Shown here: positions 183 through 58,780 of the stretch, in pieces
Position numbering within the stretch: position 1 is the stretch's first letter
Layout of the letters: each line of letters begins with the position of its first letter
Source: Lachnospiraceae bacterium NK4A144
Lineage (GTDB): Bacteria; Bacillota; Clostridia; Lachnospirales; Lachnospiraceae
Direction: 5' to 3'
NCBI GenBank assembly: GCA_000424365.1
Contig: AUJT01000006.1
Location: 1 to 64,000, forward strand
DNA: 64,000 nucleotides
Made by a program: the position numbers and the translations under genes
Notes under the pieces: model-generated
What the model saw: only the letters and a program-made list of their open reading frames with translations
Told to the model about the DNA's origin: nothing
Database searches by the model: none

Positions 183-328
183 GTTACTGTTCAGACGCAA
201 CCGGAGCACTACGCTGCGGAGGTTGCGACCAAGAAAGATGAAAAGCCATTGGATTTTGCCCATCGCCGGAGGCGATTTAATTGGCAAAATCCGTTACGTG
301 AGCGAGCTGGAAGCGAGTGAACAGTAAC
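183..328 (+). repeat. 145-bp palindromic MITE-like element, copy 1
   Basis: The element begins GTTACTGTTCA and ends TGAACAGTAAC, a perfect terminal inverted repeat. It is flanked by CGCAGAAG (175-182) and CACAGAAG (329-336), a 7/8 direct repeat as expected for a target-site duplication. Inside are two hairpins: arms 196-202/221-227, and arms 251-260/283-292 with an inner TCGCC/GGCGA pair. Related copies lie at 10409-10553, 10640-10780 (inverted) and 58636-58780. It lies between the divergent larB and EIIC-EAL genes. No coding capacity was seen. The rest of the 112-546 gap shows no convincing gene. Confidence 0.88.
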
Positions 329-546
329 CACAGAAGTGCAGGGCTTATGTACCGTTATAGAAAAACTTTATCAGGTCGATATAAGTAAGGAAAGGGGTAG
401 ATGTGCGGAACAGTGTTATGTAAACATGACATCTGCATTTTTTGATAAACACAGGAAAAAATTCTTTAAATGTCGAAAGAAACAAAATAAAATGACGATG
501 CATATTGTATACACAAGCGGATAACCAACAGCTTTTGAGGAATAAA

Positions 547-2697
547 ATGGAACGAAGAGGCAGCTTTAAATCAATATTATTTAAGATAAACGACGGACTA
601 CTCAGTTTTCCGGCAGTGGTTGCGATCCGAAAGGCAATGATATGTTCGATACCTGTTTTTCTGGTATCTTCTTTTTCTAATATCCTGATCGCGTTTCCGA
701 TCTATCAGTATCAGGTCTTTTTACAGGGAGAGATCGGAAAAGATGTGCTTCATTATCTGTCTATCATTCAAAAATCAGCTGATGCGCTGGTAGGCATACT
801 GGTGGCAGCGGCAGTAGCACATTACTATGTGCAGGAGGTTCACCCCAAAAATACTGAACTTGCGTGGATATCATCTGTTCTTTCTATCGTTAATTATGGA
901 GTGATGGTGATCGACCATGAAAAAGGTCAGATAATGGCGCAGCTCGGTGTTAATACCATGTTCATATCATTTATCAGCGGGCTATTGTCACCGATTCTTT
1001 TTTTATGGATGTATGATCATGAGTTTTTCGGACCTAAGAAAAGCCAGAGAACTGTTGACCCGACCTGGTGGTGGACGATCAAGAGCGGACCGGCATGTAT
1101 AGTGATAGGAGCAGTGATTCTCACATTGACTTATCTCTTTTGCTCGTTGACTCATATTACAAGTATTTACAACGGATTTTATATTTTCTTTAATAAAGTC
1201 CTTCCGATAAAAAATGCTGCAGCTGAGATAAATGCGGTACTGCTGATCGTGCTCCGGCAGATCTTATGTCTTCTCGGAATGAATGGCGGTGTTCTTACAA
1301 GAGAGATCAATTTTAATTATTTTGAACCGCTCCTTATGGAAAATATTGATGCCGCGACAGATGGGCTTACGCCGAAAAATATAGTTAATAGTGACAGCAT
1401 AGGAATGGTTACTTCGGCAGGTGGAGCCGGAATGGGACTGGCTCTTGTCATAGCGATCCTGTTGGTTTCGGTTTCTGCAAGAAAAAAGTGGCTGGCAAAA
1501 TTTTCTATGCTTCCTGCGATCTTTAATATTTCGGAAATACTTCAGTACGGCGTACCGTTAGCGTTCAGTCCTATTTATGCGATACCTTTTATGATAATCC
1601 CGCTCATTAACTTTTTTATCTACTGGGTACTCGCAAAGGTCAGGCTTATCCCGATGGTGGTAAAAACGAGTGACTGGATATTGCCGTATTTTGTGCAGGC
1701 TTCCGGACAATTGGGAGTCATGACGGGACCGGTGTTTATTACGCTGCTGCTTGTGCTTGATGTGCTGATATATATTCCTTTTGTAAAGCTTTCTGATGAA
1801 TATGATAAATATGTCTTTCAAAGGGATGTTGCGGAGCTCACAAAACTGCTGCAGCAGAGCGAAGAAAAAAATATTGCGTTTGACCATTTATCTTTACCAA
1901 ACAGACTTCGCACGGCATGGGAAATCCTGGTAAATGACCTGTCGATCGATCTGAAGCAGGGACATAATATCCAGATGTATTATCAGCCGCAGATTGATAT
2001 TGATGGAAGATGCATAGGAGCGGAAGCTTTGCTTCGATGGAAGCAGGAACTGGTTGGATTTGTATATCCGCCGCTTGTGATCGCAGTTGCCAAGAACGGT
2101 GAGATCCTCGAGGAACTTGAGGCGTTTATCTTTAATGAAGCTGCAAAAGAACTTTCCAGACTTGAGAGAAATAACCATAACGAACTAAAAATCTCAGTGA
2201 ATATCACGGCTACAAGCCTGCTGAGGGATAATCTGGTTGAGATGCTGGATGATGTTGTGAGGCGTTACGGAATAAAGACAACACAGCTTTGGATAGAACT
2301 TACGGAGCAGGATGCCATCACGTCTCCTCAGATAGCGCTTCAGCGACTGGAAACACTGAAAAATAAGGGATATAAGCTCCTTATCGATGATTTTGGAATG
2401 GGGCACACTTCCTTAAAGTACCTGCAATTTGGAATGTTTGACACGATAAAGCTTGATGGATCGCTTACAAGAAATATAGCGCAGGAGGATGCGAATAACA
2501 GTACAATAATCGCTTCAATAACCAAGCTCGCCGAGAAATTTAATCTGGGTATCGTGGCTGAGTATGTTGAGAGTATGAATCAGAAAAAAATGCTGGAGTA
2601 CCTTGGAGTCAGGTATTTCCAGGGTTATCTGATATCCAAACCATTGGATGAAGTGGAATTTAGAACATTTCTGGAGTCTCGTGAAGAACTGAAGTAA
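547..2697 (+). CDS. PTS EIIC-like membrane domain fused to an EAL c-di-GMP phosphodiesterase
   Basis: Residues ~1-430 form a multi-pass membrane domain of the lactose/cellobiose EIIC type. The signature loop FNISEILQYGVPL resembles the NINEP-type sugar-binding motif of that family. Residues ~465-710 form an EAL domain with the metal and catalytic positions in place: EALLRW, a SVNIT Asn, ELTE, IDDFG, the Lys of IKLDG, VAEYVE and FQGYLISKPL. It should therefore be an active phosphodiesterase degrading c-di-GMP, plausibly in response to a sugar. No EIIA or EIIB domain is present, so it is unlikely to transport by itself. The ATG at 547 was chosen because TGAGGAATAAA precedes it with good spacing; a TTG at 505 is in frame but has no ribosome site. 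The transglutaminase gene follows 16 bp downstream. Confidence 0.88.
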   Translation: MERRGSFKSILFKINDGLLSFPAVVAIRKAMICSIPVFLVSSFSNILIAFPIYQYQVFLQGEIGKDVLHYLSIIQKSADALVGILVAAAVAHYYVQEVHPKNTELAWISSVLSIVNYGVMVIDHEKGQIMAQLGVNTMFISFISGLLSPILFLWMYDHEFFGPKKSQRTVDPTWWWTIKSGPACIVIGAVILTLTYLFCSLTHITSIYNGFYIFFNKVLPIKNAAAEINAVLLIVLRQILCLLGMNGGVLTREINFNYFEPLLMENIDAATDGLTPKNIVNSDSIGMVTSAGGAGMGLALVIAILLVSVSARKKWLAKFSMLPAIFNISEILQYGVPLAFSPIYAIPFMIIPLINFFIYWVLAKVRLIPMVVKTSDWILPYFVQASGQLGVMTGPVFITLLLVLDVLIYIPFVKLSDEYDKYVFQRDVAELTKLLQQSEEKNIAFDHLSLPNRLRTAWEILVNDLSIDLKQGHNIQMYYQPQIDIDGRCIGAEALLRWKQELVGFVYPPLVIAVAKNGEILEELEAFIFNEAAKELSRLERNNHNELKISVNITATSLLRDNLVEMLDDVVRRYGIKTTQLWIELTEQDAITSPQIALQRLETLKNKGYKLLIDDFGMGHTSLKYLQFGMFDTIKLDGSLTRNIAQEDANNSTIIASITKLAEKFNLGIVAEYVESMNQKKMLEYLGVRYFQGYLISKPLDEVEFRTFLESREELK

Positions 2698-2713
2698 GAG
2701 GAGGGAACCAGAC

Positions 2714-4453
2714 ATGAAGGTAATTGGTAATATTTGTAAGGGTTTGTTGGTTTTATTACTGTTGATCACAGGATCGGTTGCGGTCTGCATTGCTAATCCT
2801 GATCTTACAGCAAAGATCGCGGCTGTTGTAAACCCTGTGGAGACAAAGGAGAAAGAGATACCTGCGACGAACTTTGCGTCGAGAGAGGTCTTTCCGGGTG
2901 ATGAGAATTATCTCATGAATCCGGTGCAGGTAGCTGATGCTGCGCTAAACGGGGATGAACAGGCTGCGGAGGCTATAAGGACAGCAAATACCGTCAGTGG
3001 TGCTTCGGGACGTGCAGGGCTCGGAAATCCGGAATCGGACTATGTTGCGCCTTCTACTTCTAATGTCAGGGTTCCGAGTGATGTTAGCGGAAAGAACGGA
3101 TATGAGGGTGTCAAAGCTGATGACGAGGAAATCGGTGATAGTGAGGCTGATGCGCTCTGGAAGGAGCTTGGCCCAGGGGAAACCGGTTCGGATCTTAGTT
3201 TTGACGCGACTTTTTATCCTTTTTTCCAGATGCTTGATGATGAGGGGAAGAATACCTACAGGCAGATTTTCGCGAATGCAAATGCAGGACGAAAGGCATT
3301 CACACCCGTTGAACAAAATCTTTCTTCTGCTGAGTTGAAAACAGCGTTTGAGGCTGTTGTTAATGATCATCCGGAGCTTTTCTGGATGGACACAGGATAT
3401 TCCGCAATGTTCAGGAATAGCGGAAATTGTGTGGAGATCAACCTGAAATTTAACCGTACGGCGGATGATCTTGCTAATGCAAAAGCTGAATTTGAGCTTA
3501 ACTCTCAGCAGATCGTCTCCGGGGCAGCGGGGCTCGGCAGCAATTACGAAAAGGAAAAGCATGTGCATGATGCTCTTATAGAGCGAGTGAACTACAGCAC
3601 AGGGGCTGAGATGAATCAGAGTGCGTATAGTGCGCTGGTTAATGATTCTACCGTGTGTGCCGGTTATGCGAGAGCTTTTCAGTACTGCATGCAGCAGCTT
3701 GGGATACCGACTTATTACTGCACAGGATATGCAGGAGAGAGTCATGCGTGGAATATCGTGTCGCTGGATGACGGCTTCTATAATGCGGATACTACCTGGG
3801 ACGATACCGGAGATAGTAAGTATGCATATTTTAACAAGACTGATTCTGATTACGGGACTACTCATGTGAGACAGGATCTGTCTGTTTATCTGCCGCCTTG
3901 TGAGGGTACTGCTTACAGAAATCTGGAGGAACCGTTGGAGACGGCTGATGCTTCTGAGGGAAATACTGATGCTTCAGCGGATCAGAGTGCGGAAGCTGCT
4001 CGTTCTCTCGAGGAAGCTGTTGCAGCTGCGGCGGCAAGCAGAGCACAGGAGCATGCTGAACAGGCAGCGGAGGCAGAAGCAGTGGCTACTCCTGCTGCCA
4101 TGAAGGCACGTGAGGAAGAGGCTGCCGCTGAGGAAGAGGCTGCCAGAATGTTTTCACTTGAGGACTATGGCATCAGTCAGGACGATGTTCTGAACAGTAT
4201 TAGTGAGTATTATACTGATTGCAAGAAACAGATCGAGAGCCGCGGCACCGGAAGTTATTCTTTTTATAACGTGATCAGCGGTGAGTCTGTCATGCAGGAG
4301 CTTTATACTGCTTATCGTCAAAAGGCGACTCAGCGTGGTTTTCTTAATGATGCTGTTGCAAATGTCGGCGGTTCGGAGTGCAGCATTTCCGTGGAGCCGG
4401 AGCAGTTGACAGGCGGTCAGTATCTACTGCGGCATACGATCTCGATTAAGTAA
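2714..4453 (+). CDS. Secreted or membrane-anchored transglutaminase-like protein
   Basis: This is a 579-residue protein with an N-terminal hydrophobic segment (~8-27) that is a signal peptide or anchor, followed by a long polar stretch. A transglutaminase-like core follows, with a complete Cys-His-Asp set: VCAGYARAF, SHAWNIV and NADTTWDD. In this family the core acts as a cysteine peptidase or crosslinking enzyme on cell-wall or surface proteins. After the core comes an Ala/Glu-rich helical segment (~430-490) and a C-terminal domain not recognised. GAGGAGGGAA precedes the ATG. It is probably co-transcribed with the EIIC-EAL gene. The substrate cannot be told from the sequence. Confidence 0.82.
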   Translation: MKVIGNICKGLLVLLLLITGSVAVCIANPDLTAKIAAVVNPVETKEKEIPATNFASREVFPGDENYLMNPVQVADAALNGDEQAAEAIRTANTVSGASGRAGLGNPESDYVAPSTSNVRVPSDVSGKNGYEGVKADDEEIGDSEADALWKELGPGETGSDLSFDATFYPFFQMLDDEGKNTYRQIFANANAGRKAFTPVEQNLSSAELKTAFEAVVNDHPELFWMDTGYSAMFRNSGNCVEINLKFNRTADDLANAKAEFELNSQQIVSGAAGLGSNYEKEKHVHDALIERVNYSTGAEMNQSAYSALVNDSTVCAGYARAFQYCMQQLGIPTYYCTGYAGESHAWNIVSLDDGFYNADTTWDDTGDSKYAYFNKTDSDYGTTHVRQDLSVYLPPCEGTAYRNLEEPLETADASEGNTDASADQSAEAARSLEEAVAAAAASRAQEHAEQAAEAEAVATPAAMKAREEEAAAEEEAARMFSLEDYGISQDDVLNSISEYYTDCKKQIESRGTGSYSFYNVISGESVMQELYTAYRQKATQRGFLNDAVANVGGSECSISVEPEQLTGGQYLLRHTISIK

Positions 4454-4484
4454 ATTACTCTGTTTTTTACTTTGGCGGGGGGAC

Positions 4485-4680
4485 GTGCAAGCCATATAGT
4501 TATCTCACGAGACGGCTCGGACAGACACTAAGTTCGCGCGCTGTCCTCATGAACACGGGAATTTCTGCGAAACTCGATGCTTCGCATCTCAGACAGTTCG
4601 CAGAAATTCCCTATTCGGACAACGTGCTCTCTAAGTGCTGCCGGCTTATTGTCTCTTTGAGATAACTATATGGCTTGCAC
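4485..4680. repeat. 196-bp element with perfect 22-bp terminal inverted repeats
   Basis: Positions 4485-4506 (GTGCAAGCCATATAG then TTATCTC) are the exact reverse complement of 4659-4680. Inside is a second perfect 15-bp inverted repeat, GGGAATTTCTGCGAA at 4557-4571 against 4597-4611. Within its loop is a smaller GATGC/GCATC hairpin. No flanking direct repeat was found and no second copy occurs in the window. It could be an old MITE or a large bidirectional transcription barrier between the convergent transglutaminase and larC genes. Confidence 0.75.
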
Positions 4681-4729
4681 TTACGTTTTGGCTGAGTGAA
4701 GTGTGTAAACTTGAATTGGTTACACAATT

Positions 4730-4773
4730 GCGCCATTTTCATGCTGTTGTGTAATAATTGCATGAAAAGGCGC
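4730..4773. repeat. Inverted repeat in the 4454-5069 gap
   Basis: GCGCCATTTTCATGC (4730-4744) pairs with GCATGAAAAGGCGC (4760-4773) with one bulged base. GTGAAG and CTTCAC lie outside it. No T-run follows, so it is not a classic terminator. No gene was found in the 616-bp gap; it is dominated by inverted repeats. Confidence 0.55.
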
Positions 4774-4997
4774 TTCACATTGATGTTTTTGATACATGTG
4801 TCTGACTAAACGACGGTTGTTGTGTAAAAATGAGCATGAGACAATGCGTTTGCGTGAATAGTCAGACTAATATAACAGGCGAAGAGTATACTGTATGCAG
4901 ACGATTCGGTTACACTAGTTAACATAACTTGGATTTTTATTGATCTATTATATTGGATATATAGTGGTAATGAGATTGGTTTTTTGATTTGATATTT

Positions 4998-5050
4998 AAA
5001 TGCGCGTAGTGATCGCTTCTTTTTACGAAGTGATCTTACTACGCGCATTT
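4998..5050. terminator. Bidirectional terminator between convergent genes
   Basis: AAATGCGCGTAGT pairs with ACTACGCGCATTT, with an inner GATCGCTTC/GAAGTGATC arm. T-rich sequence lies on both sides. It lies just beyond the stop of larC and downstream of the transglutaminase gene. Confidence 0.75.
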
Positions 5051-5069
5051 TGATGTTTATGCTGTATTA

Positions 5070-6347
5070 TTACTGGGTTTCGGCATGGATGATCTGACGT
5101 ACTTCTTTTAGAGTAAGATTTTTTTCGGCGGCGATCTTTGCCAGATCGTCGTATTCGTATTTTGTTTTTTCTATGCCAAATCCTATTGATCTTTTTTGTT
5201 GTATCTGGCCGATGGTGGTGTCTATTTTTTCTATGGTCCTGTTCATGCAGTATCGGTTCATGTGAGTTTCTCTGATTCCGATCGTTGAGGTGTGCTTGAA
5301 GAGAGTTTTTACTATTTCATCCTTTTTTTCCGAAGAGAGGATAACCTCGATAAGTGTTCCGGGGCGGGATTTTTTCATGCCGATGGGGACTGTGAAAACT
5401 TCTCTGGCACCTGCTTCGAAGAGGCGGTCCATGGCGAAGGAGATTTCTTCGGCAGTCATGTCATCTACGTTGCAGGAGAGTACAAGGACTCCCAGATCAT
5501 TGTTAGATATGGAAGTGGTCATACTTTCGCCTAGCAGGGCGCGGAGGAGATTTGCCCGAGGAAAATCTTTATGTCCCATACCGTATCCAATCTGATCGAC
5601 TGTTATGAGCGGCATATCTCCGAAGCGTGTGACGAAGTGTCGCAGGAGAGCGGCGCCTGTCGGAGTGCAGAGTTCTCCCTCAATATTGCTGCTGTAGATG
5701 GGGATTCCCTTAAGGAGCAAGGCTGTTGCAGGCGCAGGGACAGGGAGTGTTCCATGAGCACATTTTACGAAGCCGCTTCCGACGTGTATGGGGGAGGCGA
5801 TCACCTCATCCGCTTCGATTTCGTGGAATAACAGGCATACCGCAGTTATATCAGCGATTGCGTCCAGTGTACCGACTTCGTGAAAGTGTATTTCCGAAAC
5901 AGGTTTTCCGTGTACCTGACTTTCTGCGTCGGCGATGAGGTTGTAGACTTCGAGGATATCGTTTCTGACTGCGGAAGGGATATCCAGATGTTCCCTTACG
6001 ATATGCTCTATATCTTTAAGAGTATGGTGAGAATGTGAAGGATGGTCGTGGTGATCATGGTGGGATGATGCGTGATCATGTTCGTGCGAATCTTCGTGTA
6101 CATGCGCATGGTGATGTACGGAGTCTGAATTTAGATGAGCTTCATCGAGACCGTTAATAAGTACGGTCATATGAGAACCGGTGATACCGCATTTTTCTGC
6201 TTTTTCAAGTCTATATTCGATTCCCGGGATTTTCAGATCATTTAGTTTTTTTACAAAACCATCGCGATCCGGCAGAAGTTCCAAAAGAGCTGCGCATAAC
6301 ATATCCCCGGCAGCACCCATACTACAGTCAAGATAAAGAGTTCTCAT
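5070..6347 (-). CDS. larC: LarC, nickel insertion protein for the pincer cofactor
   Basis: LarC (pyridinium-3,5-bisthiocarboxylic acid mononucleotide nickel chelatase) inserts Ni into the pincer nucleotide used by lactate racemase-type enzymes. The N-terminus LYLDCSMGAAGDM, the central EIHFHEVGTLDAIADI and the CTPTGAALL motif are family hallmarks. A His/Asp-rich stretch at about residues 75-110 probably stores nickel. In Lactiplantibacillus plantarum larC is read through a programmed frameshift; here it is one open frame of 425 codons. The ATG at 6347 is favoured because AGGAGG lies 6 bp upstream; the in-frame GTG at 6353 overlaps that site. larB lies 5 kb away on the same strand with two opposite-strand genes between. 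Confidence 0.93.
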   Translation of the reverse strand: MRTLYLDCSMGAAGDMLCAALLELLPDRDGFVKKLNDLKIPGIEYRLEKAEKCGITGSHMTVLINGLDEAHLNSDSVHHHAHVHEDSHEHDHASSHHDHHDHPSHSHHTLKDIEHIVREHLDIPSAVRNDILEVYNLIADAESQVHGKPVSEIHFHEVGTLDAIADITAVCLLFHEIEADEVIASPIHVGSGFVKCAHGTLPVPAPATALLLKGIPIYSSNIEGELCTPTGAALLRHFVTRFGDMPLITVDQIGYGMGHKDFPRANLLRALLGESMTTSISNNDLGVLVLSCNVDDMTAEEISFAMDRLFEAGAREVFTVPIGMKKSRPGTLIEVILSSEKKDEIVKTLFKHTSTIGIRETHMNRYCMNRTIEKIDTTIGQIQQKRSIGFGIEKTKYEYDDLAKIAAEKNLTLKEVRQIIHAETQ

Positions 6348-6406
6348 GTGCACCCTCCTGTTTTGGTCAAAAACATAAAGAATCTGCGATCTTCTTAAAT
6401 TTTATT

Positions 6407-6434
6407 ATGACATATAGAGGCTATGTTGTATAAT
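6407..6434 (+). promoter_or_regulatory. Sigma-A type promoter for the GGDEF gene
   Basis: ATGACA (6407-6412) and TATAAT (6429-6434) are separated by 16 bp, about 50 bp upstream of the ATG at 6487. Confidence 0.55.
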
Positions 6435-6486
6435 ATCTTTAAGTATGTTTCGGAGGGCGAAACTGCTGGAGACGGGAGAGGGGTAA

Positions 6487-7563
6487 ATGAAACAGCTGGA
6501 AGCAAATATGAGACGGAGAGTACTGCGTACAGTCTTTATTTTTGTCTGGCTCTTCGTTTTAATTGATATAGTATTCTATGTTTCGGATAGATTCATAGGA
6601 TTCGAGAAAATGGATCCTGTGATTTATCCGCTTGTCCGCATATTGCTCCCGTTTCTCATCAATTTAGGAGCCTGGATCGGTTCCAAACAGGTGATCCTTT
6701 CGGAAAAATTTACGAGTCACCTGAAAAATCTGACAGTCAGCGCATGTTTGATGACGATCTGCGGTACGATGGCGATATTCCACAGCTATTTCACGCCGCT
6801 GTGGGTAGCACCTGCTATTGTAATGGTATTTGCATCGGTATTTCATGATCAGGCTATTCAGAAAAGCCTTTTTATGTACAATTTACTGATAATTATCATT
6901 ACGATCCTTGCGGCATCTTTTGAAAATCCGGATAATATTGTTTTTATCGCGGAAACGGGGATCATTGTAGTTTTGATATGTCTGCTGGTGTGTTTTGCGG
7001 CAGATATCATGCAGCGATATAATGACGATCTGGCACGGTTCAATAAGGAGATTTACCGTAGACAGGCGGATTATCGCGAAAAATTCAGGATGGATTTTCT
7101 CACGGGTGTTTATAGCAAGGCGTATCTTTTTGAGAAGACTAACTCGATCATGAAGAATGCTTCCGACAGGCATCCGATCGTAGTCGGGATAATAGATCTG
7201 GATCATTTTAAGAGTGTTAATGATACATATGGGCATGAGAATGGAGACCTGGTTTTAGCAGCGCTTGGAGAACTGCTAAGAGATTACCAGACAGATACTC
7301 TGGCTATCGGTCGTTTTGGCGGAGAGGAGTTTGTTCTGGTATTTGATGGGGAATCTCTGATGCAGGGCTGGCTCATTTTGGATGAGCTCAGGACTCGTTT
7401 CTCAGAGGAGAAATTCGACTTCACGAGCCGCAGGATGACACTTAGCGGTGGTGTTGCCGTCTTTACCGTGCCTACTGCCACAGAAGCAGCGATCGCAAAG
7501 GCAGATCAGGCACTTTATCAGTCAAAACAGCGCGGACGAAACAGGATAACGAGAGTTGAATAA
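6487..7563 (+). CDS. Membrane diguanylate cyclase (GGDEF)
   Basis: Residues ~12-190 hold about six transmembrane segments of an unrecognised sensor module. A linker helix leads into a GGDEF domain (~198-355) beginning DFLTGVYSKAYLFE. The active-site loop RFGGEEF is intact, as is the substrate-binding DLDHFKSVND segment, so it should make c-di-GMP from two GTP. A clear RxxD inhibitory site before GGEEF was not seen. GGGAGAGGGG precedes the ATG. The signal sensed is unknown. Confidence 0.9.
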   Translation: MKQLEANMRRRVLRTVFIFVWLFVLIDIVFYVSDRFIGFEKMDPVIYPLVRILLPFLINLGAWIGSKQVILSEKFTSHLKNLTVSACLMTICGTMAIFHSYFTPLWVAPAIVMVFASVFHDQAIQKSLFMYNLLIIIITILAASFENPDNIVFIAETGIIVVLICLLVCFAADIMQRYNDDLARFNKEIYRRQADYREKFRMDFLTGVYSKAYLFEKTNSIMKNASDRHPIVVGIIDLDHFKSVNDTYGHENGDLVLAALGELLRDYQTDTLAIGRFGGEEFVLVFDGESLMQGWLILDELRTRFSEEKFDFTSRRMTLSGGVAVFTVPTATEAAIAKADQALYQSKQRGRNRITRVE

Positions 7564-10360: not shown

Positions 10361-10408
10361 AGGTAAAAAACCTCATGTTTGCATTATTAGAAAAATGGTT
10401 TTGTTTTC

Positions 10409-10553
10409 GTAACTGTTCACACGTAAACGGAGCATTTACTGCGGAGTTTACGGACAAGAAAGATGAATAGCCATTGGATTTTGCCCATCGCCGCAGGCGA
10501 TTTAATTGGCAAAATCCGTTACGTGAGCGAGCTGAAAGCGAGTGAACAGTAAC
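10409..10553 (+). repeat. 145-bp palindromic MITE-like element, copy 2
   Basis: It starts GTAACTGTTCA and ends TGAACAGTAAC. Flanks are TTGTTTTC and CTGTTTCC (6/8 identical, a decayed or absent duplication). Its first stem reads CGTAAAC/GTTTACG where copy 1 has CGCAACC/GGTTGCG. It faces inverted copy 3 across an 86-bp spacer, between the divergent metalloprotease and zinc-ribbon genes. Confidence 0.85.
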
Positions 10554-10639
10554 CTGTTTCCAATATCCTAGTATATATTTGTATTAAAAAAAATACAATT
10601 AGAAAGATAGATGTGTTATGATGATTAAGAGAAAAATTA

Positions 10640-10780
10640 GTTACTGTTCACTCGCTTGCAGCTCGCGAAAGTAACAGGTTTTGCCCATCGCCTTTGGCGA
10701 TGGGCAAAACCTAATGGCTTTTCAGCACTCATGGTCGTAAACTCCGCAGTAAATGCTCCGTTTACGTTTGAACAGTTACA
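10640..10780 (-). repeat. 141-bp palindromic MITE-like element, copy 3 (inverted)
   Basis: This copy is opposite in orientation to the other three. It is flanked on both sides by AAAAATTA (10632-10639 and 10781-10788), a perfect 8-bp duplication. Its second hairpin is the most complete of the family: GTTTTGCCCATCGCC pairs fully with GGCGATGGGCAAAAC around a 3-base loop. It ends 36 bp before the zinc-ribbon start codon, so it may form part of that mRNA leader. Confidence 0.87.
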
Positions 10781-10816
10781 AAAATTAAACTTAAATAAAA
10801 CAGGGAAATATCATTA

Positions 10817-17044: not shown

Positions 17045-17171
17045 GCAGCAGCGGGATGCGGTCGTGGAATCGCAGGCAAATGCCTTTCGTCCCTGTGTCA
17101 ACTCCCTGTACACCGGGCACTGTGGAAGCACTAAATGATAGTGCTTATCAACGCTCCAAAACCTACTCTGC
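17045..17171 (-). promoter_or_regulatory. THF (tetrahydrofolate) riboswitch in the folT-folC leader
   Basis: Read on the minus strand, the leader holds GCAGAGUAGG, then GCGUUGAUAAG, a GACGAA loop and a closing GCAUCCCGCUGC. These line up in order with the THF aptamer landmarks GGAGAGUAG, GCGUUAAG, ACGAA and GCAUCCGCUCC. The terminal GCAG/CUGC helix can close. Position before folT-folC fits. Downstream, the complement of 17027-17032 (ACCUCC) can pair with the ribosome site (complement of 16991-16996), while GAUGCGG (complement of 17019-17025) can instead pair with CCGCAUC in the aptamer 3' end (complement of 17055-17061). That is a translational OFF switch on ligand binding. The aptamer match was made by eye. 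Confidence 0.72.
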
Positions 17172-17220
17172 GTTTACTGTGGTTTACGTCAGTGCGATAA
17201 AGCATCGACGTACGCACCCT

Positions 17221-30790: not shown

Positions 30791-30935
30791 CCCGGCTCTG
30801 AGTATCGTCCAGGCTCCGGTCCCACGCAATGGAAATCTGTGAACCGTGTCAGGTCGGGAACGAAGCAGCACTAAGCAGAACCTTTCATGTGACGTGGGGG
30901 TTCCGGGGTCTGAACGATATTCAGAGTCGGTTTCT
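30791..30935 (+). ncRNA. ffs: Bacterial SRP RNA (4.5S/scRNA)
   Basis: The conserved domain IV core GTCAGGTCGGGAACGAAGCA then GCACTAAG is present. The outer arms pair over a long distance: CCGGCTCTGA (30792-30801) with TCAGAGTCGG (30921-30930), and TATCGT with ACGATA. A T-rich tail TTTCTTGTTTT follows. At about 145 nt it is shorter than the Bacillus scRNA and longer than E. coli 4.5S. It binds Ffh for membrane protein targeting. A consensus promoter precedes it. Confidence 0.92.
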
Positions 30936-50540: not shown

Positions 50541-50560
50541 TGAGGGGCGTGATGAAGGAA

Positions 50561-51570: not shown

Positions 51571-51718
51571 GATATTTGAATCTAATTTTGAACCCTATCA
51601 TAATGACCATATTAGCACATTAAATTGTAAAGGAATCGGACATTTAGGATTCTTTGTATTTTATTAAAAATGGTTTAAGATTTAAAAAATGTTTTGGTGT
51701 TTTGGGGGGAGAAATTTC

Positions 51719-51829
51719 ATGTAAGAAAAGATAAAAAAGATAGTAGATAGATCAATAGAAGCGGTTTTGCCGGATACAGCGGTGAAAAGAGCTCTTCAAA
51801 ATTTTATGCCGAGTAAGGAAAAAATATAA
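51719..51829 (+). pseudogene. Remnant of a glycerate 2-kinase (MOFRL/DUF4147) gene
   Basis: A strong ribosome site (GGGGGGAG) precedes ATG at 51719, but the second codon is TAA. The frame then reads EKIKKIVDRSIEAVLPDTAV and KRALQNF before a stop at 51827-51829. The SIEAVLPDTAVKRAL segment matches the N-terminus of bacterial glycerate 2-kinases such as that of Thermotoga (SIEAVFPDRAVKETL). Only ~35 of ~420 residues remain. A terminator follows directly. Deletion of the rest of the gene is the likely history. Confidence 0.6.
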
Positions 51830-51877
51830 AAAAATTCCAAATAAAAGCAAAATTTCGCTTTTATTTGGAATTTTTTT
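51828..51877. terminator. Bidirectional terminator
   Basis: AAAAAAATTCCAAATAAAAG (51828-51847) and its complement at 51858-51877 form a perfect stem with T7 or A7 at the ends. It ends the kinase remnant and the minus-strand AAA gene. Confidence 0.85.
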
Positions 51878-51892
51878 ATAAACCACCTGATC

Positions 51893-53632
51893 TTAGAAAG
51901 TAACTTTTTCTATCTGGCATGAGTGTTCTTTTGTTTTAGAATTGTAGTTTATACCGACAAAAAGCACTTCGCCGGAATAACCTTTGAAAATATCGGAATA
52001 TCTATTGTTATGGATTTGATCGATAGCTTTCTCACTGCTTTTGTCCCATTTAAGCTCGATGATAAGGGCAGGGCAATCTGAGGTGGGTTTTGGAAAGAAA
52101 ACTATATCTGCAAAACCTTTCCCGGTGGGAAGTTCCTCAATTTTTGTATAATAATCCACACTGCTGAGATAAGCCATTTTTATGACGCTTCTCAGAGCCT
52201 GCTCGTTGTTATAAAAGTTAGGAGCGGTCATATCAGTATGCAGCTCGTCGATGATATATGCAACGGTATCAGAGTCCATTTTCCATGTAGCTTCGAGAAG
52301 CTTGTCTGATCGTTGGACAGCCTTCATGAGTTCTTTTCTATTACCGTTTTTGATAGCACGAATGAATTCGCTCTTGATCTCATCATTTGGGATCGATACT
52401 TCTTCACGATCCTCGTTATAAGTGAGATAGCCCAGATGGATCAGCAAAGTCAGAACATCATCACGGCTTTCCATAGATGTAAGGTCATTCTGGAAAGAAT
52501 TAGTATCTACTTTGACGGCAGAACCGCCGATCATATCAATAATGGAATCTTTTAGACCGTCAAAATTCATATCAATATAGTCACGAAGAGACTCATATGT
52601 TTCAGTTTTGGCCCAGTAATTGCTGATTTTTTGCCTAAGCAGAGACTCGATCACGGATTTTGGATTAAAAATATGCTCATCAGCAACGAGATATCCGTCA
52701 TACCAGGTTTTGATCTTTTCATAATCTAAAGATTTTTTCTGACATATCGTTTTGACTTCATCTTTCGTGAAACCTATATATTTCTGCAAAGGCCGCGGCT
52801 CGACCATGCTGTACTCATAGAAATCGCTCATGGCGGATTCGTGACCGTATTTTTTTATAGGCAGGATGCCTGTCATATAAACGCCGTCAAAAAGCATATC
52901 AGTGAAGCTGCTCTTGAAAAGAGAGCGGAGTAACTTGATATATTTTTCTAATATTTCAGGAGTATTCTTAAATTCGCGGATGGGCGCATCCCATTCGTCG
53001 ATTATGAGGATCAGCTTTTGTCCGGTAATAGTAACGATTTTTCCTAAAGCATCGATCAGGTTGTCGTTTAACTGTATTTCCGGGACTGCGATCGCGAGAT
53101 CTTCGACCACACTTTTCTCTATCTTATCTATCAGATTTTCGTTTTTTTGGAGAGTAGAGATAAAAAATGTCATATCAAGATAGATACAATTGTGCTGATT
53201 AAGGTGGGACTTAAATGTAGGGTCCTTGGCGATTTCAAGATCTTCAAAAAGTGGCAGAGAGTCACAGTCTTTACAGTAATATGCACATAGCATTTTTGCG
53301 CCGAATGATTTTCCAAAACGGCGCGGTCTGCTGACGCATATCAGTTTTTGTGGTGTACCGAGGAAAGCGTTCATAAAAGAAATAAGCCCGGATTTATCAA
53401 TGTAATCTCCGTTTCTTATGGCTTTAAATCCATCGTTTCCGATATTCAGATATTTTCGCATAGCAGAAGAACGCGGTGATGTTCCTGCGCCGCTTTTCAT
53501 ATACACATAATCGTCCGGTATGAGCCATCTGCCCTTTTCCAATTTTGCGCCGGGAATCCTTCCCATTTTGCAGAGAGAATTTACCTGTCTTTTGGAAATA
53601 TTCCACTTCTCTGATGCCTCTTTAGATGTCAT
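51893..53632 (-). CDS. HTH + AAA ATPase-like + PD-(D/E)XK nuclease-like protein
   Basis: An N-terminal helix-turn-helix of the excisionase/MerR type (TSKEASEKWNISKRQVNSLC, ~1-50) precedes an AAA-like ATPase domain (PF09820 type). The P-loop is SRPRRFGKSF and the Walker B is LILIIDEWD. The C-terminal ~100 residues hold a PD-(D/E)XK core: GFADIVFFP, then LIIELKWDKS. This two-domain family is abundant in gut Firmicutes and Bacteroidetes, with unknown function. The added HTH is less usual. It lies in a small accessory patch next to a toxin-antitoxin pair. Confidence 0.82.
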   Translation of the reverse strand: MTSKEASEKWNISKRQVNSLCKMGRIPGAKLEKGRWLIPDDYVYMKSGAGTSPRSSAMRKYLNIGNDGFKAIRNGDYIDKSGLISFMNAFLGTPQKLICVSRPRRFGKSFGAKMLCAYYCKDCDSLPLFEDLEIAKDPTFKSHLNQHNCIYLDMTFFISTLQKNENLIDKIEKSVVEDLAIAVPEIQLNDNLIDALGKIVTITGQKLILIIDEWDAPIREFKNTPEILEKYIKLLRSLFKSSFTDMLFDGVYMTGILPIKKYGHESAMSDFYEYSMVEPRPLQKYIGFTKDEVKTICQKKSLDYEKIKTWYDGYLVADEHIFNPKSVIESLLRQKISNYWAKTETYESLRDYIDMNFDGLKDSIIDMIGGSAVKVDTNSFQNDLTSMESRDDVLTLLIHLGYLTYNEDREEVSIPNDEIKSEFIRAIKNGNRKELMKAVQRSDKLLEATWKMDSDTVAYIIDELHTDMTAPNFYNNEQALRSVIKMAYLSSVDYYTKIEELPTGKGFADIVFFPKPTSDCPALIIELKWDKSSEKAIDQIHNNRYSDIFKGYSGEVLFVGINYNSKTKEHSCQIEKVTF

Positions 53633-53788
53633 ATTTTCCGCCTCCTTAGAGTATTATAACATATATGTGGGAAGTGGGAAGCGCACTTCTCGGAACGAAG
53701 TGTAAAATATATATTTTTTTGGTAGGACTTTTGTATCTCCATAAAAACTTGTATTCATCCCTATAAAAATATATAATTTAACAAAGAA

Positions 53789-53803
53789 ACAAGGATTCCT
53801 TGT
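53789..53803. promoter_or_regulatory. Candidate autoregulatory operator of the toxin-antitoxin pair
   Basis: ACAAGGATTCCTTGT is a 15-bp palindrome with one central base, lying just upstream of the antitoxin ribosome site. Such sites usually bind the antitoxin. Confidence 0.55.
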
Positions 53804-53822
53804 TTTATAGGAGGTGAAAAAT

Positions 53823-54185
53823 ATGCCAGGTATAGTAAAAGAACCAGAGCAAAAGAAGGTTACGATATCTTCAAAACGACAATTTACCATTCCACAAAAA
53901 TTTTTTACAGAATTAGGCTTTGAGAGAGAAGCCGTGTGTACGTTGGGGGATGGCATACTTATTATAGAGCCAATACATTCATCGAATAACGGAGAATTTG
54001 CGGAACAGATTCTAGCGGATCTTATAGCAGAAGGGTATAGTGGACAAGAATTGCTTGTCGAATTCAGATCAAGACAGTCAAAAGTTCGTCCGGCCGTTGA
54101 AAAAATGTTAGAAGCAGCTCATAAGGCATCTAAAGGACAGGGAAAATATTATACATATGATGATATTTTTGAGGGAGCAAACTGA
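53823..54185 (+). CDS. AbrB/SpoVT-type antitoxin
   Basis: The 120-residue protein has an N-terminal swapped-hairpin DNA-binding domain (KKVTISSKRQFTIPQKFFTELGF, ~13-50). A C-terminal helical tail, probably the toxin-binding part, follows. The ATG at 53823 follows AGGAGG; a GTG at 53814 overlaps that site. The toxin gene overlaps its stop by one base. The domain plus gene order indicate a type II antitoxin and autorepressor. Confidence 0.83.
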   Translation: MPGIVKEPEQKKVTISSKRQFTIPQKFFTELGFEREAVCTLGDGILIIEPIHSSNNGEFAEQILADLIAEGYSGQELLVEFRSRQSKVRPAVEKMLEAAHKASKGQGKYYTYDDIFEGAN

Positions 54186-54493
54186 TGGCGAATATCCTTT
54201 TTCTTCCACCTGCTGCAAAATACTTTAAAAAGCTTAAAGATAAGCAATTAAAGACATTATATCGTGAAGCAATAGATGAAATAAGCAAAGATCCGCGTAT
54301 TGGAGAGCCTAAACATGGCGATTTGGAAGGTGTTTTGGGGTATGATATTTATTACAACAAGATAAACTATGAGCTTGCATATACTACAGAAGAAAGAAAA
54401 ATAGAAGGCACTAATGAAACAGAAACCGTAGTCATCATAATGGCAGGTACTCGCGAAAACTTCTACAATGAATTAAAAAGATACTGGGTGTGA
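54185..54493 (+). CDS. RelE/ParE-superfamily toxin
   Basis: The 102-residue protein has the RelE/ParE fold pattern: PAAKYFKKLKDKQLKTLYREAI, IGEPKHGDLEGVLGYDI, YELAYTTEE, and a terminal VVIIMAGTRENFYNELKRY. RelE-type members cleave mRNA on the ribosome; ParE-type inhibit gyrase. The conserved G-T-R-E-N-F-Y tail favours the RelE/YafQ side. It is coupled to the antitoxin by a TGATG overlap. Confidence 0.82.
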   Translation: MANILFLPPAAKYFKKLKDKQLKTLYREAIDEISKDPRIGEPKHGDLEGVLGYDIYYNKINYELAYTTEERKIEGTNETETVVIIMAGTRENFYNELKRYWV

Positions 54494-54524
54494 AGATTTG
54501 TCTGTTTTGAATAACTGCTATTTT

Positions 54525-54568
54525 AATCTCTGGGTAAGAAAAAATATCTTACCCCCGGAGATTTTTTT
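54525..54568. terminator. Terminator between toxin and ABC-F genes
   Basis: AATCTC..GGGTAAGA pairs with TCTTACCC..GGAGATT and T7 follows. The genes converge, and the minus-strand side is also U-rich. Confidence 0.75.
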
Positions 54569-54576
54569 ATTAACAG

Positions 54577-56418
54577 TTATTGCTCAAATGAATCTACCAT
54601 ATCCTGCAGTTCGATATAGCGTTCCATTTTTTCTTCAAATTCCTGCTCTACGCGGGCTTTTTCTGCTGTGAGTTCCTGCAGCTTAACGAAATCTGTTGCG
54701 GCTTTGGGAATCTCTGCATCGATCTCGTCAGAACGGGTCTGGAGCTTGTCGATCTCTTCTTCGATAGTGTCGTATTCTTTTTGCTCTTTAAAAGAGAGCT
54801 TTTTCTTTTTGCGTTCAGGCTGGTTCTGTTTCCAATTATTCTTATTAGTAGTTTCGGTATCAGCACTATCTGAAAGTTCTCCTGAGGATGAACCCTTGGC
54901 AGAGCCGCTGTCAGTCGTGCCAGTCACATTCTTTCCTGTGTGCTCCAGATAATCTTCGTAACCGCCTTCGCTCTGATGGAGTATGCCATCGCCCTCAAAG
55001 GAAAAAATACGTGTAACTACACGGTCGAGGAAGTATCTGTCGTGGGAAACTACTATTATAATGCCTGCAAAGGAATCAAGATAATCCTCAAGTATCTGCA
55101 GAGTACTGATATCCAGATCATTGGTAGGCTCATCGAGGATCAGTACATTCGGTGATTCCATGAGCACATGCAGAAGGTAAAGTCTGCGCTTTTCTCCGCC
55201 GGAGAGCTTGGATATCGGTGTATACTGCATCGGTCCTTCAAAGAGGAAACGCTCGCACATCTGAGAAGCCGAAACAAGTCCGTCCGAAGTGCGGATAAAC
55301 TCAGCTGTATCTTTTATGTAGTCGATCACACGCTGTGATTCGTCAAGCGCTTCGTTTTCCTGACTGAAATAGCTGATCTTTACAGTCTGACCGATCTCGA
55401 CTTTTCCTGTATCCGGACGGAGATTATTTGTAAGTATCTTAATGAGAGTGGATTTTCCGCAGCCATTAGAACCTATGATACCGATACGGTCTGTACGCAA
55501 AAAATTGTATGAAAAATCATGGAAAAGTGTATGATCCCCGAAACTCTTACTGATATTTTCAACTTCTATAGTCTTGTTTCCAAGGCGAGTCACTGCGGAA
55601 TTGATCTGTACCTGACGCTCTTCAACGATCTTGTCACGGTCGCGGAGTTCTTCAAAACGCTGGATGTGGGCTTTCTGTTTGGTAGACCTCGCCCTGGCTC
55701 CGCGCTGCATCCATGCCAGATCTTTTTTGAAAAGTGCGGCTTTTTTGCGCTCCGCAGCTATGGCATAGTCCATGCGCTGCTGTTTCAGTTCCAGATAGCC
55801 GGAATAATTTTCTTCGTAGCGATATGTTTTTCCTCGGTCAATTTCCAAAATCTGATTAGAAACTTCATCAAGGAAGTAGCGGTCATGCGTAACCATAAGG
55901 ATCGCTCCGCGATAATGCTGCAGGAAGTTTTCCAGCCACTCGATCATCTCAATATCGAGGTGGTTAGTAGGCTCGTCAAGGATCAAAAGATCAGATGACG
56001 CAAGAACTGCTGCCGCGAGCGCAGCGCGTTTTTTCTGACCGCCGGACAGGATCTCGGGATTTACGGAAGGGTCATTTATACCAAATTTACCAAGCATTGC
56101 CACGACTTCACCGTTGTGAGTCTGACCTGCATTTTTTCCGTATGCCATCTCTGCGACATTCTCCAGTAGAGATTTGCCGGTATTAAATTCCGGTGCCTGC
56201 GGAAGATAGGCGATCTTCAGACCATTATTTTTGATAACCTGTCCCTGATCCGGCTCCATAATCCCGGCAGCGATGGTCAGGAGTGTGGACTTTCCTGTGC
56301 CGTTTACGCCGATAACACCGATCTTGTCATGGTCGGAGATGCCTACTGTGACATTATCGAGAACTGTTTTGGTACCAAGTACTTTTGTTATATTTTCAAG
56401 ATTTAGAATATTTGCCAT
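54577..56418 (-). CDS. ABC-F ATPase, Uup-like
   Basis: The 613-residue protein has two ABC domains without membrane parts. Walker A motifs are GVNGTGKSTL and GSNGCGKSTL; signatures are LSGGQKKR and LSGGEKRR; Walker B is LLILDEPTNHLD and VLILDEPTNDLD. The inter-domain linker is rich in RKKAALFKKDLAWMQRG. A Ser/Thr-rich stretch leads to a C-terminal coiled coil (~530-610), which marks the Uup type that binds nucleic acid. ABC-F proteins act on the ribosome, rescuing stalled complexes or protecting from antibiotics. Resistance cannot be inferred here. Confidence 0.92.
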   Translation of the reverse strand: MANILNLENITKVLGTKTVLDNVTVGISDHDKIGVIGVNGTGKSTLLTIAAGIMEPDQGQVIKNNGLKIAYLPQAPEFNTGKSLLENVAEMAYGKNAGQTHNGEVVAMLGKFGINDPSVNPEILSGGQKKRAALAAAVLASSDLLILDEPTNHLDIEMIEWLENFLQHYRGAILMVTHDRYFLDEVSNQILEIDRGKTYRYEENYSGYLELKQQRMDYAIAAERKKAALFKKDLAWMQRGARARSTKQKAHIQRFEELRDRDKIVEERQVQINSAVTRLGNKTIEVENISKSFGDHTLFHDFSYNFLRTDRIGIIGSNGCGKSTLIKILTNNLRPDTGKVEIGQTVKISYFSQENEALDESQRVIDYIKDTAEFIRTSDGLVSASQMCERFLFEGPMQYTPISKLSGGEKRRLYLLHVLMESPNVLILDEPTNDLDISTLQILEDYLDSFAGIIIVVSHDRYFLDRVVTRIFSFEGDGILHQSEGGYEDYLEHTGKNVTGTTDSGSAKGSSSGELSDSADTETTNKNNWKQNQPERKKKKLSFKEQKEYDTIEEEIDKLQTRSDEIDAEIPKAATDFVKLQELTAEKARVEQEFEEKMERYIELQDMVDSFEQ

Positions 56419-56550
56419 TATTAAACCTTTTATCGTCAGATTTACATCAAAACTATGTCAGACGAATTTATCATACGTTTACAATAAACCAACATCATCT
56501 AATTTATCCGAAACACCGGTATTTGGCAAGCTGCTCCATATATCAAATGA

Positions 56551-56584
56551 TCAAGGGGCAGGTGGATATCCACCTGCCCCTTGA
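56551..56584. repeat. Perfect 34-bp palindrome
   Basis: TCAAGGGGCAGGTGGAT (56551-56567) is followed immediately by its exact reverse complement. It lies between two minus-strand genes. No U-run follows on either side. Confidence 0.75.
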
Positions 56585-56624
56585 CCGCACACTATTAAAA
56601 AGAGAATTTAAGGAAAAAAACAAA

Positions 56625-58220
56625 TCACTTTGAACTTGTGGTTAGTTTTTTTGTACCGTTAAAGTTACCTACACCCGTAATTGTTATATAACCATCTTTG
56701 ATCTCTGCGGTGTATTCCTTTTTTGCCTTGAGCTTCTTGGCTTTGCCTGCTGCTGCACTTGTGAGCTTGCGAACCTTATCGCCTTTTTTGTTGAGGGTAG
56801 CAGTGAGTGTATCATAAGCAATCTGCACAGGAGCGATCTCGAAGTATACAGGATTCTCCTTCAGATACTTATTGGCAGTCTTTACAGCTTTCTTTACATC
56901 CTTTGATGCACTCTTGTCAGCCTTGAGCTGGATATAGTAGTTCGGAAGCTTCTTGCCCTTGTCCTCTACTTTCTTGTAGGAAGCGAGGTTTTCTTTAGTT
57001 ATAGATGTTGCAAATACAGAGTTCTGTGATACATAAGCGCCATTTGCGTTCTTGATCGTTACTTTGCTGATATCGACCTTGGTGCCGTTCACTGAAACAG
57101 TACTCTTATCAATATCTATAGGAAGAGCATTTCTCTTGTCGGCTTTCTTGCTGAACTTGCCTGCCTGTCCATTCCATACTACTGCATCAGCACTGTAAAG
57201 AGCCATGTCGAGGGATACAGAATCGCCTTTCTTGGTCTTTGCTTCCTTGATGACTGTATGCTCTGTGCCAAAGGTCAGATGCTCATTCTGCGTGCTGGTA
57301 TAACCGTTGCTGTTGGGGGAAACAGAGCCAGAACCACCATTAGAACCACCATCGTCGTCAGCTTCAACGTCTACTGTAAATTTATATGTAAATTCCTGAT
57401 CATCATTCGTGTAATTTTCGGTGCAGTTGTCGTGAGTAATTTTGATCTCTACTTCATTTTTTCCGGCCGTTAATGGCTTAGGAGAGACAATATCAAATTT
57501 AGATTGACCCCATCCATAATGGCCATCATAAATATCACTATTTTCATTCTCAAGTTCAACGTCAAATGTTTCAGTGTTATATTCAGCATCTGTTCCATTC
57601 AGACCATTAAAATAAGCAGCACTCGCATATACTGTTATATCCTCAGGCTCAAGCACATCGCCCTCAGAAGGATCAAAGTCGCATTTCGCCCCGGTTATCT
57701 TTGTAATGCGATAGTCATCATTATAGTATCCACCTGTCACGGAGAGCTCTGTGGAGGCCTCTTCAGCTGAATTATCATCAAGATAAAGTTCGTCGCTCGT
57801 ATTTTTAACAACCTTCATGGTAACGTAATTAAGAGTTAAGGCTTGTTTGCCTGGAACGATAATAGAGGTTTCTTTTGCTGTGATGAAATCATTATCTCCA
57901 TCCTCAGGGACTACATCATTTTCTGCATAGATTTTCTCCCGGTCCGATGGGTAAGTTAAATAACTTATTTCTTCAATCGGATCACCGACATGGAAATCGC
58001 CTTCCTTGAGGTTGCTAGGTCTAAATATTTTAAAACCATATCCTTCCGTGACATTTCCATTGTTAGTTGAACTTAAATCACTACCCGTTATCAAGATGTA
58101 GGGCGAACTTTCACCTTCTCCATCTACTCTTTTTATTTCTGCCTGAACAGGTACTGCCGATGAAATCACCATTGCTGCTGCAAGTGTCGCAGCTAAAAGC
58201 TTGCTCCTTCTACTCCTCAT
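56625..58220 (-). CDS. Secreted protein of unknown function with C-terminal Ig-like segment
   Basis: The ATG at 58220 follows AAGGAGG by 5 bp and gives a clear signal peptide (RRSKLLAATLAAAMVISSAV, then PVQA). The 531-residue protein has acidic beta-rich domains, a Gly/Ser linker (~295-310), and a Lys-rich C-terminal region ending GYITITGVGNFNGTKKLTTS. That G-x-GNF-x-G-x-x-x-LTT ending resembles the end of the 35874-37154 protein. No catalytic motif was seen. Confidence 0.7.
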   Translation of the reverse strand: MRSRRSKLLAATLAAAMVISSAVPVQAEIKRVDGEGESSPYILITGSDLSSTNNGNVTEGYGFKIFRPSNLKEGDFHVGDPIEEISYLTYPSDREKIYAENDVVPEDGDNDFITAKETSIIVPGKQALTLNYVTMKVVKNTSDELYLDDNSAEEASTELSVTGGYYNDDYRITKITGAKCDFDPSEGDVLEPEDITVYASAAYFNGLNGTDAEYNTETFDVELENENSDIYDGHYGWGQSKFDIVSPKPLTAGKNEVEIKITHDNCTENYTNDDQEFTYKFTVDVEADDDGGSNGGSGSVSPNSNGYTSTQNEHLTFGTEHTVIKEAKTKKGDSVSLDMALYSADAVVWNGQAGKFSKKADKRNALPIDIDKSTVSVNGTKVDISKVTIKNANGAYVSQNSVFATSITKENLASYKKVEDKGKKLPNYYIQLKADKSASKDVKKAVKTANKYLKENPVYFEIAPVQIAYDTLTATLNKKGDKVRKLTSAAAGKAKKLKAKKEYTAEIKDGYITITGVGNFNGTKKLTTSSK

Positions 58221-58252
58221 ACGATCCTCCTTGATATCCCTCTCTTGCACAT

Positions 58253-58399
58253 ATTGTTCCGCATTTCGGACTAAACTTAGCAAACGACGTAAATGTCTGA
58301 TACATATACTGAAAGTAAAGACGAAAATCAGTCATGTGTGCCCATGACAGAGCGGAACAATAACTGCGAAATAATGTTATTGGCTTAATGTATCAGACA
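58253..58399 (-). repeat. Interleaved inverted repeats (pseudoknot-like topology) upstream of a secreted protein gene
   Basis: Arms A (ATTGTTCCGC, 58253-58262) and A' (58352-58361), and B (TGTCTGATACAT, 58294-58305) and B' (58388-58399), are both perfect, in the order A-B-A'-B'. A small GTCATG/CATGAC hairpin (58331-58348) lies within. The region would be the mRNA leader of the 56625-58220 gene. An (AT)10 run follows at 58423-58442. The rest of the gap to 58635 shows no gene. Confidence 0.55.
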
Positions 58400-58635
58400 A
58401 CTACCGAAGTCGTCAGAAACTAATATATATATATATATATATAGTCAATACAATTTCGGGTTGTTTATGATTTTGTGCAGACTTCGCAGTTGTGTCCCAA
58501 TAGATTTTGCAAGCTGCCGGGTATTGCCATTGCCATAAATATGCCGCCAGCCTGAATTAAGGTTTATGTGGGATAATTTATAGATAATGCCGATAAATTA
58601 AGAAGAAAGTGATACTTGTGCAGAGTGCATTTCGT

Positions 58636-58780
58636 GTTACTGTTCAGACGTAAACGGAGCATTTACTGCGGAGTTTACGACCAAGAACGCTGAAAAGCCA
58701 TTGGATTTTGCTCATCGCCGAAGGCGATTTAATTAGCAAAATCCGTTACGTGAGCGAGCTGAAAGCGAGTGAACAGTAAC
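58636..58780 (+). repeat. 145-bp palindromic MITE-like element, copy 4
   Basis: It is flanked by perfect 8-bp direct repeats CATTTCGT (58628-58635 and 58781-58788). Terminal repeats GTTACTGTTCA/TGAACAGTAAC are perfect. The second stem reads GGATTTTGCT/AGCAAAATCC, a compensated change from the GGATTTTGCC/GGCAAAATCC of copies 1 and 2. It lies 54 bp before the response regulator start, between divergent genes. Confidence 0.9.

Follow-up and report, generated by a model that had tools for sequence, protein, structure and literature searches.

Four related repeats in the window

The window analysed here, positions 1 to 64,000 of contig AUJT01000006.1 of Lachnospiraceae bacterium NK4A144 (64,000 nucleotides), contains four copies of a short palindromic repeat, described below as a miniature inverted-repeat transposable element (MITE). 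Its terminal inverted repeats (TIRs) are 11 bp long and of the GTTACTGTTCA type. Genomes, loci and contigs are labelled with G, L and C numbers, and G000 is the genome that holds the window. Copy 1 (146 bp, positions 183–328, forward strand) has the ends GTTACTGTTCA and TGAACAGTAAC; copy 2 (145 bp, 10409–10553, forward), copy 3 (140 bp, 10640–10779, inverted on the reverse strand) and copy 4 (145 bp, 58636–58780, forward, the reference copy for searches) were located by BLAST and a covariance model. These are the four ~145 bp copies reported in a first-pass annotation, and all are present where it placed them with one small departure: the inversion of copy 3 and its start at 10640 are correct, and its end was set one base too far, at 10780.

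The 8-mers flanking copies 1 to 4 agree at 7, 6, 8 and 8 of eight positions respectively, as had been claimed (two identical pairs, one pair at 7/8 and one at 6/8). Copy 3 lies between perfect target duplications of AAAAATTA (10632–10639 and 10780–10787) and copy 4 between those of CATTTCGT (58628–58635 and 58781–58788). The duplication at copy 1 (CGCAGAAG at 175–182 and CACAGAAG at 329–336) matches at 7/8, and the 6/8 flanks of copy 2 (TTGTTTTC at 10401–10408 and CTGTTTCC at 10554–10561) are perhaps a decayed duplication. Up to E = 10 the covariance model matches the window only at these four copies; there are eight matches in all, four of which are weaker opposite-strand readings of the same copies. 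Sites within two mismatches of GTTACTGTTCA are found 37 times in the window, compared with 15.7 ± 4.1 in 100 shuffles, the largest of which has 24.

Copies, duplications and empty sites in the genome

At least 65 copies are present in G000 by the covariance model (the best 65 of 901 candidates were scored and all 65 matched), and BLAST gives at least 42 matches (best 40 of 163 candidates scored). The motif GTWACWGTTCA occurs 253 times across the whole genome, compared with five for the reversed control. An exact 8-bp repeat flanks 21 of the 32 copies examined, the four window copies included, and the mean agreement over the 32 is 7.0/8, compared with 2.37/8 in mispaired flanks; one of them, L013, had its left end mis-set and was scored as a miss. 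Duplication lengths of 7, 9 and 10 bp give means near those of the controls (2.6, 2.9 and 3.1 versus 2.1, 2.6 and 2.9).

Empty sites were sought by joining the flanks of 10 insertion sites around one 8-mer and comparing them with 48 genomes of the genus. Matches span the junction at six of the 10 sites (L008, L026, L004 and L003 in G344; L046, L003, L063 and L026 in G300), and base-level alignment of these six sites with eight stretches gave four above threshold (L008, L026, L004 and L046) and none for L003 or L063. Each of the four has a single 8-mer, exact at L008 and L026 and with one mismatch at L004 and L046. With just 1 of 120 bases differing from G344 at the L008 insertion site and 3 of 120 at that of L026, these insertions appear recent. 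A within-genome counterpart of an empty site is provided by L061, a 202-bp copy that by eye is nested in an older, decayed member of its own family.

The first-pass annotation proposed a non-autonomous MITE with 8-bp duplications, and the copy number, the duplications and the single-8-mer empty sites bear this out. Its suggested search of the genome with a covariance model yielded the copies counted above, many more than those in the window, and in the comparison of empty with filled sites none of the four aligned at base level kept two 8-mers. The element has these attributes of a MITE: it is ~145 bp, multi-copy and without transposase-coding capacity, with TIRs, target duplications and one-8-mer empty sites.

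There are several larger or compound variants. Elements of 201–360 bp that carry additional inserted sequence are found in G000 (L132–L135), G326 (L129 and L130) and G320 (L128), and all of them have an exact 8-bp duplication. A larger MITE variant in L131:143-2136 (G320:C1:5342-7335) is split by another element, which codes for a 445-aa protein that by eye resembles an IS4-type transposase, and the outer duplication GCTGCTTA is intact. Tandem MITEs are present at L271:1501-1798 and L281:745-1018, with the same 8- or 9-mer between and flanking them: AGTATATC three times, and TATACTTTT between and after with ATACTTTT before.

An IS66-type element with the same ends

A full-length insertion sequence (IS) with the same termini is present in G299, where a 2190-bp element (L081:1136-3325) starts with GTTACTGTTCA and ends with TGAACAGTAAC. 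It codes for a 114-aa small protein and a 534-aa transposase with a PF03050 score of 74 bits (cut-off 23). When one genome per species was scanned, 79 loci of this transposase clade were found, including records named Butyrivibrio, Roseburia, Oribacterium, Lachnospiraceae and other Clostridia. When ends were picked by motif alone, with the flanks disregarded, both were found in 46 of the 79 loci, giving lengths of 2190–2929 bp. Exact 8-bp repeats are present at 15 of the 34 elements with both flanks, compared with 1 of 1122 at 7/8 or better in a mispaired control; L101 and L092 are further full-length examples with exact duplications. All six transposases of set A1 match PF03050, and residues D331, D383 and E508, which by eye we take as the DDE triad, are invariant in the alignment. 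Transposase P0002 scores slightly below the NCBIfam transpos_IS66 cut-off (168.6 of 180), and no solved structure is related to the transposase by sequence.

The small open reading frame (ORF) 5′ of the transposase gene matches profile A2 in 30 of the 71 loci with 500 bp upstream, and six of seven other loci viewed by eye have a different short ORF that is coiled-coil-like. No IS66 TnpA or TnpB model in Pfam or NCBIfam matched the small ORF. We note that a 2929-bp IS66-type element beginning at L170:1515 has an extra ORF before the transposase gene. Known phages and plasmids were considered as a delivery route and rejected: the phages gave one unannotated record with a 59% identical partial copy, and the plasmid relatives are 24–29% identical (best 10 of 76).

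Several arrangements link the MITE to these elements. In L081 the repeat GCAACCCG flanks not the IS alone but a 3955-bp composite (L081:1136-5090, G299:C14), which is bounded on the left by the end of the IS and on the right by the outer end of a MITE at 4927–5090, with ~1.6 kb of other DNA included. Most of this MITE is covered by a model match, L215, on that contig. The arrangement is most simply explained if one IS end and one MITE end were paired by the transposase. A stretch of 14 bp is identical between some MITE and IS ends (L005, L104 and L141), a MITE adjoins an IS in L192 and a partial MITE does so in L140, and an IS appears to sit within a MITE in L163. In G320, L126 is a 752-bp derivative of the IS that retains its termini, the small ORF and the first part of the transposase gene and is not flanked by a duplication.

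The link to IS66 had been offered in the first-pass annotation as a guess, and it gains support from the full-length elements (2190–2929 bp), which have matching ends, duplications of 8 bp and a transposase of PF03050, and from the composite of IS end and MITE end. The proposal that the transposase is encoded elsewhere also agrees with our searches: no intact matching transposase was found in the 68-contig assembly of G000, just a 135-aa fragment (L095, G000:C3:313310-313714) that is 94.8% identical to the G300 transposase. IS66 copies on contigs C16 and C10 of G000 were rejected as a source: isolated sites that resemble an end, with one mismatch, occur near them, and no matching pair of ends with a duplication was found there.

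Distribution

The MITE model matches 39 of the 48 genus genomes, 71 of 397 family genomes and 63 of 334 sampled genera (own genome or genus included in each case). The covariance model did better with relatives outside the genus than DNA BLAST, which gave matches in 6 of 299 genomes, the own genome included. The flanks provide a check that is independent of the model. After dropping the 8 of 55 hits at contig edges, 47 remain, three of them seed copies; in 32 the flanks agree at 7/8 or better, 24 of these being exact, compared with 0.05% at 7/8 or better in the control. The transposase is much rarer in the genus, with P0002 finding matches at E ≤ 1e-30 in 7 of the 48 genomes, versus the MITE in 39. 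All family counts are lower bounds, with at most three transposase and seven MITE candidates scored per genome.

A conserved three-hairpin fold

The MITE is not a shapeless deletion product, and its fold, which is an addition to the earlier description, is kept across the family. The plan is TIR-L, hairpin I, hairpin II with a 3′ bulge, and hairpin III, which comprises an internal TIR copy and TIR-R. In copy 4 the left TIR (58636–58646, forward) is followed by hairpin I (58649–58679) with an apical TTTA within GCA-TTTA-CTGC, then by hairpin II (58703–58744) with an outer stem, an inner stem with a GAA triloop, and the 3′ bulge. Hairpin III (58745–58780), which like the other two is on the forward strand, contains an internal copy of GTTAC that is able to pair with the right TIR (58770–58780, reverse); this pairing is partial, and the energy model favours the left repeat as the partner. 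Copy 3 is without the bulge, so that hairpin II there is an unbroken palindrome. The stems of elements in other genera differ and the plan is unchanged.

When 13 elements are aligned by sequence alone, 82.2% of the cells pair, compared with 33–44% in slid controls, and changes on both sides are seen at 27 of 41 pairs (11.4 ± 2.3 in shuffles and 7–13 in slides). Because the structure came from one of these 13 elements, the paired cells are favoured more than the double changes. The weakest parts are hairpin III and the base of hairpin I, where three of the helices are 49–74% paired. In 62 elements fitted to the model 93.5% of the cells pair and double changes are found at 39 of the 41 pairs; this alignment leans to the structure, and both covariation tests ignore relatedness.

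The unpaired positions are informative too. Hairpin II ends in a GNA triloop in 42 of the 62 elements, and the tip of hairpin I is TTTA in 18 and CTTG in another 18, with outer loop bases that covary (C-G in 39, T-A in 20 and other in 2 of 61). Conserved unpaired bases include C at column 34 (61/61), A at column 127 (60/60) and A at bulge column 210 (50/62), and many columns in the spacer (87–97) are below 0.5 bit. TTTA- and CTTG-type loops fold in DNA with a pair across two bases. Mismatches in 2360 pair cells comprise 58 G-T, 44 A-C and 110 other; in nine tRNAs from the same loci, the acceptor and T stems have 13 G-T and 3 other mismatches and lack A-C altogether (p 0.0016). A constraint on RNA should favour G-U over A-C, whereas one on DNA need not. 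The literature describes minihairpins with GNA loops, for example d(GCGAAGC), as DNA of extraordinary stability (PMC4686876, PMC6479982). The GNA triloops, together with G-T mismatches that are scarcely commoner than A-C, suggest that selection acts on the fold as DNA. The reason is probably that folded single strands or cruciforms matter in mobilisation or copying; this is the least certain step of the argument.

Small palindromes of 29–37 bp were found 17 times in the loci examined. Sorted by eye from their flanks, nine are hairpin III of a MITE and eight are not, being solo palindromes of two back-to-back terminal repeats (L078:1475-1511, L326:12514-12542, L122:128-161, L119, L120, L123, L082:1131-1167 and L322:7879-7907). 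Flank agreement among the eight is an exact 8-bp duplication at L078, 7/8 at L326, 6/8 at L122 and 1 to 4 at the other five, so that some solo palindromes look like MITE derivatives. These perhaps arose when TIR-L recombined with the internal TIR copy and TIR-R was retained. An initial reading of such palindromes as terminators (L120) was rejected.

Two other features of the window with Rfam matches are the small bacterial signal recognition particle RNA (30813–30912) and, on the minus strand, a tetrahydrofolate riboswitch (17047–17172).

Origin of the copies and alternative explanations

The copies, their duplications and the empty sites, together with larger elements of the same ends and duplication length, the composite, and the transposase fragment in G000, are all observed, and on this basis we consider it highly probable that the four sequences are MITE copies moved by an IS66-family, ISBst12-like transposase. 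Such a transposase would recognise the GTTACTGTTCA-type ends and join the element to staggered cuts 8 bp apart, whose repair would give rise to the 8-bp duplications. The shared ends and the composite point to this IS66-type transposase as the probable mover, acting in trans, and it may arrive in a genome, amplify the MITE and then be lost. The role of folded strands or cruciforms lies outside the confidence that we place in this account.

Several observations weigh against it. In the family the clade is found at E ≤ 1e-30 in 20 of 397 genomes and co-occurs with the MITE in six of them; the MITE is in 65 of the 377 non-carriers, and the association is weak (p 0.14). Conversely, 65 of the 71 family genomes with the MITE have no such transposase at this threshold, and G327 has 47 MITE model matches and no PF03050 match. 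Among the 34 larger elements for which both flanks are available, 19 have no duplication. It may be that the transposase is gained and lost, or that unrecognised relatives also act. For the fold, no strand preference is seen: against co-oriented genes the element runs in the same sense in 33 cases and in the opposite sense in 21 (p 0.13), and against replication in G320 the counts are 20 same, 15 opposite and 3 ambiguous among 38 listed (p 0.50). Replication-linked use of a single strand is thus without support as yet. Folding of the two strands with DNA parameters is about equal (sense lower in 36 and higher in 21 of 58), and we rejected a sense-strand folding advantage as slight and unconvincing.

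The scarcity of the clade among MITE carriers, with G335 and G344 (the latter 75% complete) joining G327 as MITE-rich genomes without a PF03050 match, is what would be expected if an unrelated transposase that also makes 8-bp duplications were responsible and the likeness of the ends to IS66-type elements were due to chance. We regard this as very improbable, since it would have to accommodate 14 bp of common end sequence in some pairs, the equal duplication length, the composite, the MITE adjoining the IS in L192 and the partial one in L140, the deletion derivative in G320, and the transposase fragment in G000.

The strong covariation of the stems is open to two other explanations. One is that the hairpins are kept as transcribed host RNA, such as a stabiliser, a terminator or a small RNA. 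The elements are mostly intergenic, as this would predict, given that none of the 32 G000 copies for which context is available falls within an ORF (context is lacking for 2 of 34) and that 5 of 47 copies of other genomes overlap an ORF, and a T run follows the solo hairpin L120. However, the mismatch spectrum is unlike that of tRNA stems, the gene orientation bias is not significant, and no T run follows the element (4.27 versus 4.12 T in 12 nucleotides). No Rfam family matched the element above its gathering score in 11 sources or in the window, and the sole match at E ≤ 1 on elements from the 11 sources is to a miRNA model at 43 bits, compared with a cut-off of 140 (E 0.0015). We consider a host RNA distinctly unlikely. 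Template-switch correction between the arms, a mutational process that would keep palindromes without structural selection, is somewhat easier to entertain, though still unlikely: Watson-Crick double changes predominate, with few G-T intermediates, as expected from arm-to-arm copying. This could explain the stems but not easily the conserved bases of the loops and bulge, where correction cannot act, and many spacer columns vary.

Returning to selection on folded DNA, we tentatively raise the possibility of a superfamily of MITEs that are mobilised by a DDE transposase and whose propagation depends on a conserved folded DNA strand. Its members would have DNA-type loops (C-GNA-G; CTTG/TTTA) on their three hairpins, a bulge on the 3′ side, and the terminal repeat in a third, internal copy; equally tentatively, the transposase or a replication step might read shape as well as ends.

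Implications

The ends of a MITE are generally assumed to be all that it requires. The element described here, present in 63 of 334 genera, keeps its length, fold, bulge and loops while much of the stem sequence changes, which is unusual for tiny elements and raises the testable question of whether folded DNA is read by a DDE transposase or by the replication fork. The covariance model is a finder for such repeats in gut and rumen bacteria, and close strains offer a natural set of insertion polymorphisms. Pairing of one IS with one MITE is also a route by which an IS66-type transposase could carry genes between them.

Comparison with known systems

No description of the element was found in the open-licence literature, judged mostly from titles. 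Similar known elements are found within IS66. Classic IS66 elements (TnpA, TnpB, TnpC) make 8-bp duplications, and their transposase is of the same family as that of the partner element. Their terminal sequence is different; the ends of ISPsko1, for example, are given as GTAAGCGTCC (PMC12888890). With the ISBst12 group of IS66 the partner shares a PF03050 DDE transposase and an 8-bp duplication. ISDge4, assigned to this group by its authors, is listed with one TIR of GTAACTGCTCAGCA and an 8-bp repeat, and this TIR is one mismatch from GTAACTGTTCAG over 12 bases; the other end of ISDge4, GTGACTACTCAGCA, is by eye less close to the partner's ends in this one member (PMC12898284). The partner departs from the group in having a small ORF before the transposase rather than a single TnpC ORF, in ends that are mostly GTTAC, and in a transposase of 534–587 aa compared with the 449 aa listed there (PMC12898284). 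Because of the extra small ORF we call it ISBst12-like and do not file it as an ISBst12 member.

RUP, NEMIS/Correia, ERIC and BOX are bacterial MITEs with strong secondary structure, and like the element here they are short, non-coding, intergenic and high in copy number, with inverted ends and hairpins. The element differs from them in its 8-bp duplications and IS66-type ends, and in a compensated fold across many genera with loops of the DNA-hairpin type. For the composite, there is a parallel with the TIME-COMP composites of Tn3-type MITEs, in which MITE ends likewise help to bound a DNA-carrying unit, whereas L081 has one full IS66-type element end and one MITE end, compared with TIME-COMP as described in PMC13367494.

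A different kind of likeness is to the ends of IS200/IS605 elements and the attC sites of integrons, which use folded single-strand DNA with Y1 transposases or the integron integrase and give no 8-bp duplication. These also have conserved strand-specific hairpins with bulges and special loops, but the likely mover of the element here is a DDE transposase.

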